Positions 6,403 through 64,000 of a DNA stretch of 64,000 nucleotides are shown piece after piece. Origin of the DNA: Antrihabitans stalagmiti (GTDB lineage Bacteria; Actinomycetota; Actinomycetes; Mycobacteriales; Mycobacteriaceae); assembly GCF_016482825.1 (NCBI RefSeq), contig NZ_JAEMNV010000005.1, positions 306,921-370,920 on the forward strand. Direction: 5' to 3'. How positions within the stretch are numbered: the stretch's first letter is position 1; each line of letters begins with the position of its first letter. The position numbers were made by a program, and so were the translations under genes. The notes below the pieces were generated by a model. That model had not been told where the DNA came from, searched no databases, and worked only from the letters and a program-made list of their open reading frames with translations.

Positions 6403-7995
6403 TCAGCGCGCCGACCGGGCGGCCGTGGTTGTTGTCGCCCCATCCGGGCCCGACAGTGTCATGCGGTTGTCGTCGAAGGTGATCGTCGGCTCGGATGCGC
6501 TTGGATCGTCGGGGCGAAAGCCGCCCGTGGTCGAGACGAACGAGCGAGACGGCAGGCCGTCGGTGATCTCGACCGCAGCGACGCTGCCTTCCTCGTCGAG
6601 GGCGTACCAGACCACAGCGGTCTCGCTCCCCGATGTGACGGTCACGTACGTGCGGAGGTCGCCGTCGTCGAACAGCGTACCGGCGAGTTCGACGTCGTCG
6701 AGCGTTCCGATGTCTGTTTCCAATGCCTTTCGCTCGTCGCGACCTTCGTCGGTCGCACCGGCCAGCAGCGCCAGCACGTCCGCCTCGTGCTCGGCGATCC
6801 TCGACGCGCCGATGTCGTCGGGAATCGGGAACAATGCCGGCACTGCGTCGGGGCCGGCCGCCGTGACGACCAAGCGAGAGTCCCGCGAAGAGACCTCGAA
6901 CGAGCCGCCCGAGTCGAGCTCGTAGCGGCCGACGACGGCATCGAGCGCGCCGGGATCGAGGGCGACCTCGTCGTCACGGGGTGTGGGAAGTGGGTCGCCC
7001 GCGACCAAGGCAGGCCCGACCGCCCGAAGAAGCTCCTCTGCCGTCACCTTCGCGGTGTTCGACGCCATTGCGACGACCCGCTCACTGCTCGGCAGCCAGA
7101 CCACAACTGCATTGTGACCTGTGCTGTCGCCTCCCCCAGCGGCGGCCAGTCCGGGCTCACCGAACACCTTGTCGTCCAACGCAACCCAGCCGGGTGTCTC
7201 GGACGTTCCGTCACCCACGTCGAACACGGGAGTGCGGATGCGTTCCACAGCTTCCGGCGATACCACCTGACCGGTGAACAGTGCGTGAGTCCAGGACGCC
7301 AGATCGCGGGTGGTCATCGCCAACCCACCGTTGCCGTCCAGCGCCCAGTGTGGACCGGCCTCCCAGAACCCGCCCGCGACGTGGCCGTCCGGGAGACGAA
7401 GGACCCTCGTGACCATGAAGTCGCGGTAGGACATCCCGGATGTCTCCTCGATGATCAGCGCAAGCAATGTGTAGCCCGCGTTGGAGTAGAGCACGTCCGA
7501 GCCCGGCGCGAAAGCGACTCCGAGGTTGCTGATCGCGGCCAGTGCCTCGTCGCGTCCGAGGGGCTGTTCGTCGCTGCCATGGTTGCCGGTCAACCCGCTG
7601 GTGTGGGTCAACAGCTGGGCAACCGTGACGTCGGCGACGGGTCCACCGAGGTCGGGAACGAGGTCTCCAGCCCGATCGTCGATCGATAGCTTGCCGTCGT
7701 CGACGAGAGCGAAAATGGCAGCGGCAGTAAAGGATTTGGTGATCGACCCGACGCTGAACACCGTATCCGTCGTGATCGTCGTGTCGCCGTAGGCGAACGA
7801 ACAGTCCTCCCTGCCGCCGGTCGAGATGGCGATGGTACCGCTGAACCCGGCCACCGCCCATTCATCGAATCCCGCCGCAATTTCCGGACACTCGATCGAC
7901 CGATCCGACACCGACGCAGGGGAATCGGAGTCGGCCGTGCAGGCCCCCACAAGCATTGTCACGCCGATGATCAGCGCGGCTCCACGTCGATTCAT
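6403..7995 (-). CDS. Lipoprotein serine hydrolase, beta-lactamase/PBP4* (class C-like) family
   Basis: 530 residues. The N-terminus is a lipoprotein signal with lipobox LVGAC around Cys19, which fixes the start at 7995 rather than at upstream ATGs. The catalytic domain has the SxxK motif S84-I-T-K87, Y170-S-N172, and LLTHTSGL typical of the family. Members hydrolyse D-alanyl peptides, esters or beta-lactams; the substrate here is open. The C-terminal 180 residues, with LDPGALDAVVGRYELDSGG, look like the beta-rich domain that often follows such hydrolases. It is displayed on the outer face of the membrane and encoded directly upstream of the two-component pair. Confidence 0.9.
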   Translation of the reverse strand: MNRRGAALIIGVTMLVGACTADSDSPASVSDRSIECPEIAAGFDEWAVAGFSGTIAISTGGREDCSFAYGDTTITTDTVFSVGSITKSFTAAAIFALVDDGKLSIDDRAGDLVPDLGGPVADVTVAQLLTHTSGLTGNHGSDEQPLGRDEALAAISNLGVAFAPGSDVLYSNAGYTLLALIIEETSGMSYRDFMVTRVLRLPDGHVAGGFWEAGPHWALDGNGGLAMTTRDLASWTHALFTGQVVSPEAVERIRTPVFDVGDGTSETPGWVALDDKVFGEPGLAAAGGGDSTGHNAVVVWLPSSERVVAMASNTAKVTAEELLRAVGPALVAGDPLPTPRDDEVALDPGALDAVVGRYELDSGGSFEVSSRDSRLVVTAAGPDAVPALFPIPDDIGASRIAEHEADVLALLAGATDEGRDERKALETDIGTLDDVELAGTLFDDGDLRTYVTVTSGSETAVVWYALDEEGSVAAVEITDGLPSRSFVSTTGGFRPDDPSASEPTITFDDNRMTLSGPDGATTTTAARSAR

Positions 7996-9290: not shown

Positions 9291-11988
<2,698 letters not shown>

Positions 11989-56840: not shown

Positions 56841-57148
56841 GCCGGATCGGCACATTTGCGCGCTTCGGCGAACCCACCGGACTCACGTCGAAGACGCCGA
56901 CCTGAAGCTCCTTCAGGTGACGATGTCCTTCAGGTGACTATGGGGCACGCGTCGATTCACATGTACCGCGCACACCCACGATTCAGATTTGGATCGCGTG
57001 GTCGATGCGCTAGACAGGCTCAGATTCGACTCATGAAGTGGCGGACGGTCACGCATGGCGGACATTCGGCTGATTTTCGAGACCGGATCGACTGCCAGTC
57101 CATCGCAGCGAGCTGACCAAGAGCGCCCTGACTTGCGAGAAGAGATTG
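56841..57148. other. Non-coding stretch with a short hairpin and a direct repeat
   Basis: 308 nt without a convincing gene. Seen: the hairpin at 56901-56917 and a direct repeat of TCCTTCAGGTGAC at 56909-56921 and 56926-56938. The remainder shows nothing recognised. Confidence 0.5.
56901..56917 (+). terminator. Short hairpin after the glycine-rich gene
   Basis: CCTGAAG-CTC-CTTCAGG, a perfect 7-bp stem, 61 nt after the stop at 56840. No T-tract follows, so terminator function is tentative. Confidence 0.4.
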
Positions 57149-57222
57149 TGGCCAGGGCCGGGATCGAACCGGCGACCTTCCGCTTTTCAGGCGGACGCTC
57201 GTACCAACTGAGCTACCTGGCC
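57149..57222 (-). tRNA. tRNA-Phe (GAA)
   Basis: 74 nt. Acceptor GGCCAGG pairs with CCTGGCC plus discriminator A. The D arm has AGCTCAGTTGGT, the anticodon stem is CCGC/GCGG with loop CTGAAAA and anticodon GAA, and the T arm has GGTTCGATCCC. Last of the Glu-Asp-Phe cluster. Confidence 0.97.
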
Positions 57223-57276
57223 GGACGGCACCGGAACTTCAATGCCAATCGCGTTGCGATGTGACTCGCAATATTG

Positions 57277-57350
57277 CGACCCTGACGGGACTCGAACCCG
57301 CGACCTCCGCCGTGACAGGGCGGCGCGCTAACCAACTGCGCCACAGGGCC
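57277..57350 (-). tRNA. tRNA-Asp (GTC)
   Basis: 74 nt. Acceptor GGCCCTG pairs with CAGGGTC plus discriminator G. Anticodon stem CCGCC/GGCGG, loop CTGTCAC, anticodon GTC; T arm GGTTCGAGTCC. Confidence 0.97.
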
Positions 57351-57433
57351 TTGCATGTACTGCATTTACTTCGGAACTTCTCCGAGTCAACTGTCACCGT
57401 AAACTCGGGCACAACGTGAAAACCGGTCGAACG

Positions 57434-57506
57434 TACCCCCTACGGGATTCGAACCCGCGCTACCGCCTTGAAAGGGCGGCGTCCTAGGCCGCTAGACGAA
57501 GGGGGC
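57434..57506 (-). tRNA. tRNA-Glu (TTC)
   Basis: 73 nt. Acceptor GCCCCCT pairs with AGGGGGT plus discriminator A. Anticodon stem CCGCC/GGCGG, loop CTTTCAA, anticodon TTC; T arm GGTTCGAATCC. First gene of the cluster in transcription order. Confidence 0.97.
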
Positions 57507-59810: not shown

Positions 59811-59853
59811 GCCCCTTTAGCTCAGTTGGTAGAGCTACGGACTTTTAATCCGA
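59811..59853 (+). tRNA. Truncated tRNA-Lys (TTT), 5' part only
   Basis: GCCCCTTTAGCTCAGTTGGT, the D arm, and an anticodon arm with stem CGGA/TCCG around CTTTTAA (anticodon TTT) are intact. After that the sequence reads AGGGTTCTGGCTCATTGACC, with no T arm (no TTCRANY) and no pairing 3' acceptor. It is a 5' tRNA fragment, probably the remains of a native lysine tRNA gene broken at or near an integration site. Confidence 0.7.
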
Positions 59854-59999: not shown

Positions 60000-60050
60000 T
60001 CGGCTGGCTAGCTTACCCGACGCCCCTTGGGGCAAACGGAAGGGGAAGCG

Positions 60051-61160
60051 ATGGCGTGGGCCGAGAAGCTCCCGTCCGGCAAGTACCGCGGGATGTACCG
60101 CGACGCCGAAGGCGCAAAGCGCAGTGTCGGCACTTTCGCCCGCAAAGACGAAGCTGTGCGCCAAGCTGGCGCGAAGGAAGTCAACGAGCGAGAGTCGCCC
60201 ACTCCGCGCGAGGCCAGGACCGTGACGTGGGGCGAGTGGGAACCACGATGGGAGGCGATGCGCCTCGTGGTCTCAAGCACCGAGCGCTCCGACAAAGGAC
60301 GGCTACGTGACCATGTGCGGCCCCGATGGAAGAACGAGCCTCTGCGGTCGATCACCGGCGACGATATCCAGCGGTGGGTCACTTCCCTCGCGGATGGCGG
60401 GATGGCAGCGTCGACGGTTGCCAAGTGCTACTACCTCCTGAGCTCGTCGATGAAGGCCGCGCTCCAAGCGAAGCTGATCCCAACGAACCCGTGCAGCGGG
60501 ATCAAGCTACCGAAGGTCGGTCCGATGCCCGAGCGGTTCCTCGACGCAGACGAAGTGTCCGCGATCGAGGCGTCCCTGGACGAGTTCGACGCATTCGTCG
60601 TCAAGGTGTTGCTCGGCAGCGGCATCCGACTCGGCGAGGCGATGGGCCTGCACTGGGAAAGCGTCGACCTCAAGCGCAAAGAACTCACAGTCGAATGGGC
60701 TTACGACCCCGTGGCTCAGTTGATGAAGACGCCCAAGGACCACGAGCGCCGAACGATCCCCCTAGGCGAGACCTTGACAGGCTTACTGAACGTCAGGCTC
60801 GACAAAGGTGGCGTTGGCCGAGCGGCGCCGCCGCCTGTCGAATACCCGAGGAACGCCCGACTCCATTCAGGTCTTGTTCTGGCGCACACGCACGGCCGTC
60901 CGTTCGATCCAAGTAACCTCAGACATCGATTCGAGGCATCCGTGCGTATCGCCTACGTCGGCACCGGCAAGAAGCGGCACCAGATCGGGCATGTCCGGTT
61001 GCATGACTTGCGGCACACGTACGCGAGCCGACTTCTGGAAGCTGGTGTGCCGATTGAAGAAGTCTCGCGGCTGCTCGGGCACGCATCAATCACAACGACC
61101 ATGCGATACGCACATCGCGCTCGGTCACAATGGGACAATGTACGGTCGGCGTTGGGTTGA
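60051..61160 (+). CDS. Tyrosine-recombinase phage integrase
   Basis: 369 residues. An arm-binding domain (WAEKLPSGKYRGMYRDAEGA) and SAM-like core-binding domain (about 55-140) precede the catalytic domain. Catalytic residues are Arg193 in IRLGEAMG, His318 and Arg321 in LHDLRHTYAS, His344 in LLGHASITTT, and the nucleophile Tyr353 in MRYAH. AAGGGG precedes the ATG at 60051. Its location 51 nt from an intact tRNA-Lys fits an integrase using a tRNA-Lys attachment site. Confidence 0.95.
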   Translation: MAWAEKLPSGKYRGMYRDAEGAKRSVGTFARKDEAVRQAGAKEVNERESPTPREARTVTWGEWEPRWEAMRLVVSSTERSDKGRLRDHVRPRWKNEPLRSITGDDIQRWVTSLADGGMAASTVAKCYYLLSSSMKAALQAKLIPTNPCSGIKLPKVGPMPERFLDADEVSAIEASLDEFDAFVVKVLLGSGIRLGEAMGLHWESVDLKRKELTVEWAYDPVAQLMKTPKDHERRTIPLGETLTGLLNVRLDKGGVGRAAPPPVEYPRNARLHSGLVLAHTHGRPFDPSNLRHRFEASVRIAYVGTGKKRHQIGHVRLHDLRHTYASRLLEAGVPIEEVSRLLGHASITTTMRYAHRARSQWDNVRSALG

Positions 61161-61366
61161 TCCCTCCGCTTAATCGATCCTTGTCGACATTGGCCGGATT
61201 CGAGCTTGCGCCGTACCCGGACAATCCGCTTTCAGCGAAAACCTCAGCTGGAGGACTGCTGGCTGGGTGCGCCAAAACCACACTAGGTTGATCCCGGCGT
61301 GGGGTCACTGCCCACCCTGTCAGAGTCTGCAACGATGATGACGCAAGAAACCGACGAGGAGGATAG

Positions 61367-62338
61367 ATGGCACGCGCCGACCTACTCCTTGCTCTCGTGA
61401 AGTCTGGAGCGGGTGGTGACGAACTGGCATTTCGTCGCGCCGCAGAAGCTCTGATCGCCGAGGAGGAGGGCAAGAAGCACGGTGTTTTGGCCTCCCAGCT
61501 CGCCGACGCCCTCACCCGACGCTCCCGCTCAGGATCAAACGTCGCCCCGCTAGCCCGCAACGAGGCCGCCTCCGCGCTGTTCTACGAGCTGGAGCCCGCG
61601 CGGCGCACCACCGACCTCGTCCTACCGTCGCCCGTACGAGCGGCGATCAGTGAACTCGTCGAGGAACACCATCGTCGCGACCTTCTATGCAGTCACGGCG
61701 TAGAGCCTCGCCACCGGGTTCTACTCAGCGGTCCGCCCGGCGGCGGTAAGACGTCACTGGCCGAGGCCGTTGCATCCGAACTAGCCGTTCCTCTCCTCAC
61801 CGTCCGCTACGAAGGCTTGATCGGCAGCTTCCTTGGCGAGACGGCCTCGCGCCTCGACACGCTATTCGCCGCGGTCCGTATCCGTCCCTGCTTGCTCTTC
61901 TTCGATGAATTCGACACCATCGCCAAAGAGCGAGGCGACATCCACGAAACCGGCGAGATCAAACGGGTCGTGAGTTCTCTACTTCTCCAGGCAGACCGAC
62001 TCCCATCGCACGTCGTCGTCGTCGCCGCCACCAATCACGCTGAGTTGCTAGACCGCGCGGTTTGGCGTCGGATGCAGATACGACTAGAGCTACCCCACCC
62101 GACCCGGGCCGCCAAGATCGAGTTCTTAAGCGCTTGGGCTAGCCGCAACAACGTTGATCTCGGACTCAGTCCTCGCAGCATCGCTGACCGTCTTGGTATC
62201 GTCAGCTTCGCCGAGCTGGAGGACTTCGTTCTCGACATTCAACGACGCTCCATCCTGTCGGGACCCGAACCTCATCCCACCGAAGTGACACAACTGGTAC
62301 TGAAGCACTGGTCGACGCGCGCCAACCCCGACGGTTAG
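61367..62338 (+). CDS. AAA+ ATPase, partner of the subtilase
   Basis: 323 residues, single AAA domain. About 110 N-terminal helical residues (substrate or partner binding) precede Walker A GPPGGGKTS (122-130), pore-loop-like YEGLIGSFLGE, Walker B LLFFDEFD (176-183), sensor 1 Asn223 in AATNHAELLDRA, and an Arg finger at 234-235. It is closest in style to proteasomal/FtsH-type unfoldases. The stop codon TAG is followed directly by the ATG of the subtilase. It probably unfolds or gates substrates for that protease, or controls its activation. Confidence 0.9.
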   Translation: MARADLLLALVKSGAGGDELAFRRAAEALIAEEEGKKHGVLASQLADALTRRSRSGSNVAPLARNEAASALFYELEPARRTTDLVLPSPVRAAISELVEEHHRRDLLCSHGVEPRHRVLLSGPPGGGKTSLAEAVASELAVPLLTVRYEGLIGSFLGETASRLDTLFAAVRIRPCLLFFDEFDTIAKERGDIHETGEIKRVVSSLLLQADRLPSHVVVVAATNHAELLDRAVWRRMQIRLELPHPTRAAKIEFLSAWASRNNVDLGLSPRSIADRLGIVSFAELEDFVLDIQRRSILSGPEPHPTEVTQLVLKHWSTRANPDG

Positions 62339-64000
62339 ATGGCAAGCCGTGATGGTGCCGCCTCGACAGCACGACCGGTAATTCTTGGTGCCGTCAGCAC
62401 AGCGCAGGCCACCACGTTGCCGCAAGGGCGCAACGGCGGCAAAGTCCGCTTTCCGTCCCTAGACGCGAGGCGCCAGCGCCTCGAAGATCGCTTCGTCGCG
62501 GCGTCAGACGCCTTCCAGACCCAGATCCAGCTTGGCGAATCACTCCCGGCCGCAGACCCTCAGCTCGTGCTCGTTCTCGAGGCCAGAGACGAGCGCCTCG
62601 ACCTGACCAGCGTGGCCAAGAAACTCAACATCGAGTTACTAACCGAGACAGAGTCCAGCGCCGCGGCCGACGACGAGTTCGAGATGATCAACACCAAAGC
62701 AGCGCCCATCGTATCCAGCACCCTCCATGCCGTTTGCCTCAATCAGAAGGCAATGAGCGAGCTGCTCAGCCTTTGGCGAGCGTGGAAGGCCGACCAGAAA
62801 CTCGGCCACGGCTACGCCAAGATGCGCGACCTGTTTCTGCATCTCAAAGACGTACGACCATGGGGACCACAAGACCGACTCAAGCTGATCAACTGGGACG
62901 ACCACTTCGCCGGACAACTTCCCGGCAGCAAACGGTCCGTCGACATCGAGTTGTGGTTCCGTGGCTCGACAGCGACCCGTACTACGGCGGAGGCCCAAGT
63001 TACGGCTCTCGTCGGCCAGGCCGGGGGCGCCGTTATCAACCGTGTCATCAACGAAGACATCGGATATCACGGACTGAAGTGCGACCTTCCCATCGAGATT
63101 GTCGAGGTTCTGGCTCGGGGCAACCTCGACACCATTCAGCTAGTGAAATCCGCCAACGTCATGTACCTCCGCGTCACCGGCCAGGTGATAGCTCAGCCGG
63201 GCCCCGACACCGCCGAGGAAGTTAGCTCCACCGCAGCCATGCCGACCGGCGCGCCGGTTGTATGCCTTTTCGACGGACTCCCGGCCACTAATCATCCGCT
63301 CTTGCAAGACCGCGTCAATGTCTACGACCCCGACGACCTCACCGCCGGCTACAACGTCGACGAGCGCCGACACGGAACCTGGATGACGTCAGCAGTGGTT
63401 TGGGGCGACCGAAGCGAATCACCCGACATCGCCGCCGCCCGGCCGGTCATGGTTCGCCCCGTACTGGTGCCCTCGCCGGAGACCCTCCAGCGCATCGAAG
63501 AGCTGCCGATGCAGGACCTTGCCCCGGACTTGATGCGCAGGGCATTTCGCGACCTGTTCGAATCAGGGCCGACCGGCACCGCTCCCGCTGGTGCGGACAT
63601 TGCCATCATCAATCTCTCCGTCGGCGACCCCGCCACGCCCTTTGACAGCATCGTCTCTTCGTGGGCACGGATGATTGACTGGCTGAGTTACCAGTACGGG
63701 GTCCTGGTCGTCGTCTCGGCCGGGAACCACCTGAGCCTAAACCTCAGCCCGATGAACAGCACTGACTTCGTTGCCCTCCAGGGCGTAGACCGCCGAAACG
63801 CTATGCTCGATGCGCTCGATCGGCACCAAAACGATCGCCGCCTCATTGCACCGGCCGAGTCGATCAACGCCATCACCGTCGGCGCTACGCACGCTGACTC
63901 CTCCAGCATCGAACCCCTGGCCTATCAAGAAGACCCTGCCGATGGCCTATCGAGCGTCAGCCCCGTGACATCAATCGGCTCCGGCTACCGTCGCAGCATA
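62339..64000 (+). CDS. S8-family subtilisin-like protease, 3' end outside the window
   Basis: 554 codons to the window edge with no stop. The ATG directly follows the ATPase stop. The first 300 or so residues have no recognised domain and no signal peptide, so the enzyme is cytoplasmic. The protease domain starts near 300: Asp312 in VVCLFDGLP, His345 in RRHGTWMTS, SAGN with oxyanion Asn463, and SINAITVGATHAD. The catalytic Ser (GTS-type motif) would lie past position 64000. No propeptide-like or secretion features are seen. Intracellular subtilases beside an AAA ATPase are seen on mobile islands. Confidence 0.9.
   Translation, partial: MASRDGAASTARPVILGAVSTAQATTLPQGRNGGKVRFPSLDARRQRLEDRFVAASDAFQTQIQLGESLPAADPQLVLVLEARDERLDLTSVAKKLNIELLTETESSAAADDEFEMINTKAAPIVSSTLHAVCLNQKAMSELLSLWRAWKADQKLGHGYAKMRDLFLHLKDVRPWGPQDRLKLINWDDHFAGQLPGSKRSVDIELWFRGSTATRTTAEAQVTALVGQAGGAVINRVINEDIGYHGLKCDLPIEIVEVLARGNLDTIQLVKSANVMYLRVTGQVIAQPGPDTAEEVSSTAAMPTGAPVVCLFDGLPATNHPLLQDRVNVYDPDDLTAGYNVDERRHGTWMTSAVVWGDRSESPDIAAARPVMVRPVLVPSPETLQRIEELPMQDLAPDLMRRAFRDLFESGPTGTAPAGADIAIINLSVGDPATPFDSIVSSWARMIDWLSYQYGVLVVVSAGNHLSLNLSPMNSTDFVALQGVDRRNAMLDALDRHQNDRRLIAPAESINAITVGATHADSSSIEPLAYQEDPADGLSSVSPVTSIGSGYRRSI

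Follow-up and report, generated by a model that had tools for sequence, protein, structure and literature searches.

The two adjacent genes at the end of the window, a stretch of 64,000 nucleotides at positions 306921-370920 of contig C40 in the 6.39 Mb genome of the soil actinobacterium Antrihabitans stalagmiti (closest named relative Antrihabitans sp. YC2-6, Nocardiaceae), are by sequence comparison an IetAS locus of a known anti-phage or toxin-antitoxin kind and no new system. By analogy to tested homologues, it seems fairly likely that the locus encodes a toxic protease, IetS, that would be held by the ATPase IetA and released by infection or element loss to cause growth arrest. The pair had originally been put forward as the best candidate for an undescribed system, but this is ruled out by end-to-end matches to the PADLOC models of IetA (PDLC04232, 1.4e-139 across residues 1–320 of 323) and IetS (PDLC04233, 6.1e-247, residues 12–839 of 842), which represent a pair already described in the literature. 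Both proteins match at full length with the same gene order and catalytic motifs and no defining difference, which places them in the same catalogued subfamily. They are also homologous in the AAA core and S8 core to NCBIfam IteA and IteS but fall outside these equivalogs, with 212.4 bits versus a cut-off of 510 for IteA (NF042959) and 58.2 versus 900 for the highly divergent IetS sequence (IteS, NF042956), and the further relatives that were tested, from actinobacteria and rhizobia, stay below these cut-offs as well. The combination of PADLOC matches and NCBIfam scores far under the cut-offs places the pair in a divergent, already catalogued IetAS branch, and such scores mean that anti-phage activity is not simply transferable to it. 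The features of the two genes are the following:

61356..61362, plus strand: Shine-Dalgarno-like GAGGAGG ahead of ietA (sequence read directly)
61367..62338, plus strand: ietA, 323-aa AAA+ ATPase (PADLOC PDLC04232, Pfam AAA, 18-sequence alignment)
61730..61753, plus strand: IetA Walker A GPPGGGKT, residues 122–129 (G122, G125, G127, and K128 invariant)
61826..61843, plus strand: IetA pore-loop-1-like SFLGET, residues 154–159 (S154, L156, G157, and T159 invariant in 18 sequences)
61898..61915, plus strand: IetA Walker B FFDEFD, residues 178–183 (D180 and E181 invariant)
62339..64000, plus strand: ietS, 842-aa cytoplasmic S8 subtilase, gene cut by the window edge (PADLOC PDLC04233, Pfam Peptidase_S8)
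62924..63208, plus strand: IetS ferredoxin-like (beta-alpha-beta-beta-alpha-beta) segment, residues 196–290, at the I9 propeptide position, tentative (hhalign, AF2)
63272..63274, plus strand: IetS catalytic Asp312 (invariant, 19 sequences)
63371..63373, plus strand: IetS catalytic His345 (invariant, 19 sequences)
63725..63727, plus strand: IetS oxyanion-hole Asn463 in SAGN (invariant, 19 sequences)

IetA shows a Pfam AAA match of 2.4e-29 and resembles Cdc48/PAN-type unfoldases. The Walker A, Walker B, and pore-loop-like residues that had been pointed out before are indeed present and are joined by an ATN sensor at residue 221 and a WRR motif with the Arg fingers R234/R235; in an alignment of 18 IetA homologues, the Walker motifs, SFLGET, and R234/R235 vary little or not at all. 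With these motifs, IetA would be a classical AAA+ ring ATPase and, by analogy to tested homologues, the antitoxin. IetS matches Pfam Peptidase_S8 (3.8e-22), and the full gene lies on the same contig (L002:4260-6788, equal to 62339-64867 in extended window numbering). The original prediction had listed a missing catalytic Ser as grounds for doubt, but extending the contig past 64000 revealed the nucleophile S606 in GTSVATAL, so the one element of the active site that the window lacked does exist. S606, like D312 and H345, which had been assigned correctly, and N463, is invariant across 19 IetS homologues. Also as predicted, the protease is cytoplasmic, with no signal peptide or transmembrane stretch over the entire protein (Kyte-Doolittle maximum 1.23). 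A phmmer search found no PDB relative of IetS, and no solved structure of a close relative of either protein was found. By analogy to homologues, IetS would be the toxin.

The stop codon of ietA (TAG at 62336-62338 by ORF reading) is followed at the very next base by the ATG of ietS at 62339 on the same strand, confirming the abutting arrangement proposed earlier, with ietA upstream. In relatives, this junction is likewise abutting or overlapping in most cases, including a TAATG overlap in several, and the two genes are probably translationally coupled. Conserved pairing elsewhere, on which the original prediction depended, is evident: a search of 396 actinobacterial genomes with an IetA profile gave 20 matches of at least about 180 bits (the next being FtsH/Cdc48-like ATPases at no more than 124 bits), and IetS is encoded directly downstream on the same strand of 19 of these, while the remaining one sits at a contig tip. 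Over 18 pairs, the distances among IetA and those among IetS show a correlation of r = 0.96, as expected for co-inherited genes, and conservation is higher in IetA (about 76%) than in IetS (about 55%) within the closest set. Comparison to the sister copy gives a dN/dS of 0.09 for ietA and 0.09–0.21 for ietS, i.e., both genes are under purifying selection. Together with the Pfam AAA and Peptidase_S8 matches, these low values indicate that the pair is more than a product of chance. They also bear on the idea that IetAS is a relic or non-functional cargo, for which one could cite the one-base frameshift in ietS of the sister strain Antrihabitans sp. YC2-6 (L041:7579-7580) and the split of ietS into two ORFs in Rhodococcus sp. 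G-MC3 (L045:7296-7377). These split genes reflect either toxin-gene inactivation, in which case some lineages may have lost the toxin, or assembly errors. The window's copies of ietA and ietS, however, are both intact with all motifs present and a dN/dS well below 1, which makes a relic very improbable.

The pair had been proposed to form a two-protein ATP-dependent protease, that is, a machine in which the IetA ring would unfold targets chosen by the N-terminal part of IetS and thread them into the IetS active site to destroy a phage or host protein. The sequence of IetA fits this idea insofar as ClpXP and HslUV contain a ring ATPase with a pore loop and IetA carries the corresponding motifs, i.e., the aromatic-hydrophobic-Gly pore-loop-1-like motif, the Walker B Glu, and the Arg fingers of an ATPase that is unfoldase-like overall; the tight pairing and coupling with IetS and the long N-terminal part of IetS would fit as well. 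Yet we identified no docking element, and the genetics of homologues point in the opposite direction from a ClpXP-type dependence of the protease on its ATPase. The SGI1 subtilase SgiT is toxic within 30 min and is neutralized by the ATPase SgiA (PMC5006074). In mycoplasma, an AAA/subtilisin pair works as a toxin-antitoxin module, and deleting the antitoxin alone is lethal (PMC8562856). A homologous subtilase that is toxic without its ATPase argues against an ATPase that feeds the protease, so we do not favor this explanation and regard it as unlikely, albeit with a residual probability that comes from the unfoldase-like motifs kept by IetA. Compared to a ClpXP-like machine, the restrained toxin thus appears to be the better analogy. 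It should be kept in mind that these systems are likened by architecture: the mycoplasma TA132/133 module shares the two-protein architecture, with toxin-antitoxin function shown, but is chromosomal and comes from a very distant host, while SgiAT of SGI1 and IetAS of pTiC58 share with our pair an AAA ATPase and a subtilase in one operon, ATPase first, on an integrative island or plasmid.

In front of its catalytic domain IetS has the long N-terminal region of about 300 residues that had been noted as unassigned. The region is there, but it may not be without recognizable folds, since with low confidence it looks like a tandem of two ferredoxin-like domains, with the second one at the position of a subtilisin propeptide. 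Residues 196–290 directly precede the catalytic domain, and nowhere else in IetS is a collinear alignment with subtilisin I9 propeptides obtained (hhalign gives 20.6 here versus 13.1 or less for outside windows and 13.8 for the best of 40 column shuffles; one I9 sequence in this comparison was a textbook propeptide). With an hhalign probability of just 13%, this likeness is a hint. An AlphaFold2 model of a homologue with 57% identity to IetS shows a beta-alpha-beta-beta-alpha-beta arrangement at the propeptide position; the pLDDT is 48 for the full homologue, which makes the model usable for secondary structure alone, and 60 for the N-terminal part. Foldseek matched the N-terminal model to tandem ferredoxin-like proteins (best E 0.003), and the best structural match of the full, poor model is Pro-Tk-subtilisin. 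Pro-Tk-subtilisin (3AFG) and Kex2/furin-type subtilases might share with IetS the order of a propeptide-like domain, S8 domain, and beta-rich C-terminal domain, as judged from this low-confidence model, but these enzymes are secreted or exported whereas IetS is cytoplasmic with an extra N-terminal domain. An order of two ferredoxin-like domains, S8 domain, and beta-rich C-terminal domain is therefore a reasonable but unproven prediction for IetS, and the placement of one ferredoxin-like domain at the propeptide position is a specific, testable idea.

That the pair lies next to an integrase on a mobile island had been recognized correctly and is supported by the integrase itself and by a tRNA-Lys junction:

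59811..59852, plus strand: 5' half of the chromosomal tRNA-Lys(UUU), forming the left attachment junction (compared with the empty site of genome G001 and the 3' half on contig C34)
59926..59999, minus strand: complete island-borne tRNA-Lys(UUU) (ARAGORN; common to the sister island in genome G003)
60027..61160, plus strand: phage-type tyrosine integrase of the island (Pfam Phage_integrase 2.3e-28; 58% identical to Gordonia phage integrases)

The tRNA-Lys site is uninterrupted in genome G001. In the host of our island, the tRNA-Lys(UUU) is split inside the anticodon stem-loop and not rebuilt; its 3' half is found with matching chromosomal neighborhood on contig C34 (L068 about 9890-9945), and a 16-bp core, ACGGACTTTTAATCCG at 59837-59852, is common to both halves. 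By pattern search, the copy carried by the island is the sole complete tRNA-Lys(UUU) in the genome. We had also considered a small element bounded by a nearby attachment direct repeat, but there is no such repeat within 18 kb and the partner half-tRNA lies on the other contig. Assuming one continuous element, the island comprises at least 79.5 kb on contig C40 plus 5.9 kb on C34, i.e., at least 85 kb, with IetAS at one end beside the integrase. This integration mode resembles the tRNA-dependent lysogeny of mycobacteriophages (PMC10865867) in its tyrosine integrase, its short core inside tRNA-Lys(UUU), and its element-borne replacement tRNA of the same isotype. Unlike in those phages, the integrated element is here an island that spans at least 85 kb and carries metal-handling genes along with IetAS, and among its listed families we noticed none for phage structure. 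Near the insertion site, a cluster of tRNA-Phe, tRNA-Asp, and tRNA-Glu at 57148-57506 is kept in all 4 same-genus genomes that were compared. At the same tRNA-Lys site, genome G002 of the Antrihabitans genus carries a different element (L059, equal to G002:C18:8000-23000, about 7050-7600; L124), which brings along a tRNA-Lys of its own plus an integrase at 63% identity, adjoining the other chromosomal flank.

The cargo of the island includes three P-type ATPases, CopC, a multicopper oxidase, and a cation efflux protein. An ArsR-like regulator, CtaG, a BlaI-type repressor, and an MMPL protein were also seen (L002:6789-20000, L003, L061, L062). No second complete defense system was detected among the 48 island proteins scanned (single PADLOC matches were DrmD, mad2, and PDC-M72A), and with its metal-handling cargo the island is thus not a classic defense island. 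The idea of an integrase-adjacent "defense slot" was also rejected, as genomes G002, G012, G010, and G009 are without IetAS after a related integrase and show no consistent defense gene there by eye. A sigma-70 promoter scan found none upstream, but such scans are uninformative for actinobacteria.

Phage defense or element maintenance had been suggested as likely roles of the pair, and both match the published roles of homologues. Papers on the family describe it both as a toxin-antitoxin module of plasmids or islands and as a defense against phages (PMC5006074, PMC8562856, PMC11878078, PMC9958689, PMC10732053), and ietAS is listed among the systems that phage replication proteins activate (PMC10732053).

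According to the title of Yamamoto 2009, IetAS reportedly stabilizes pTiC58. This would suit a pure maintenance role, with IetAS acting as an addiction pair that serves to retain the island or to shut out rival elements and is not really directed at phages, and several observations fit such a role: IetAS sits directly at the integrase end, and the segment from tRNA-Lys over integrase and ietA to ietS (59794-65164 in extended numbering) shares 93% identity with YC2-6 compared to only 75% for the chromosomal flank, with the two islands that share integrase and ietAS at 93% diverging past that point. Relatives were found in 95 plasmid records, and no IetS relatives were found in the phage collection or viral contigs with the probes used (the profile was too divergent to serve for pattern scanning). 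Moreover, sgiAT stabilizes SGI1 when the helper plasmid is present, but SgiAT expressed from its own promoter showed no post-segregational killing (PMC5006074). Our island is set apart from SGI1 and pTiC58 by its phage-type integrase that acts at tRNA-Lys and by its metal-handling cargo. Same-family integrases also occur without IetAS. Furthermore, the family is listed as anti-phage, and its members keep company with defense-like genes: a complete Gabija pair (GajA/GajB) directly adjoins IetAS on an R. rhizogenes pTi plasmid (L072:2575-5698), and other relatives adjoin a ShosA/DprA-like gene, an OLD/AAA_21-like ATPase, or another tyrosine recombinase. We therefore consider maintenance without any role against phages improbable, though slightly less so than an ATP-fed protease.

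We thus favor the restrained protease. For this model, the present analysis shows that the two genes are paired in a fixed order, inherited together, and under purifying selection on the island, and that they encode a cytoplasmic protease and an ATPase with intact motifs. The remainder is modeled on homologues, and we infer that this divergent pair would behave like the tested ones, and likewise the nature of its trigger and substrates. IetA and IetS would be made together from their abutting, probably coupled genes, with IetS as an active and potentially lethal cytosolic serine protease that, in uninfected cells, would be bound and restrained by IetA, presumably through direct contact. Phage replication, or an end of IetA synthesis upon element loss, would cause this restraint to fail, and released IetS would then cleave what are presumably essential cytosolic proteins. 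The resulting growth stop would both block the phage (abortive infection) and penalize loss of the island. Against this model speak the scores far under the NCBIfam cut-offs, an island that otherwise looks like metal-handling cargo, and the missing post-segregational killing by SgiAT from its own promoter. A more elaborate scenario, which we deem rather unlikely, is that the island is doubly locked at one end, with the host's only tRNA-Lys(UUU) destroyed and replaced and with IetAS arresting cells that lose the element or are infected by competitors; IetS may then be a zymogen with a propeptide-like ferredoxin domain under IetA control.

In line with the original prediction, which knew of no established mechanism, the mechanism of IetAS is stated as unknown in the literature (PMC11878078, PMC9958689). 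What makes the locus interesting is this unsolved question and the unusual nature of its island. IetAS is widespread, and this actinobacterial member, which is intact and divergent and has a sister copy, provides a second model for how an AAA+ ATPase would restrain and release a cytosolic subtilase.
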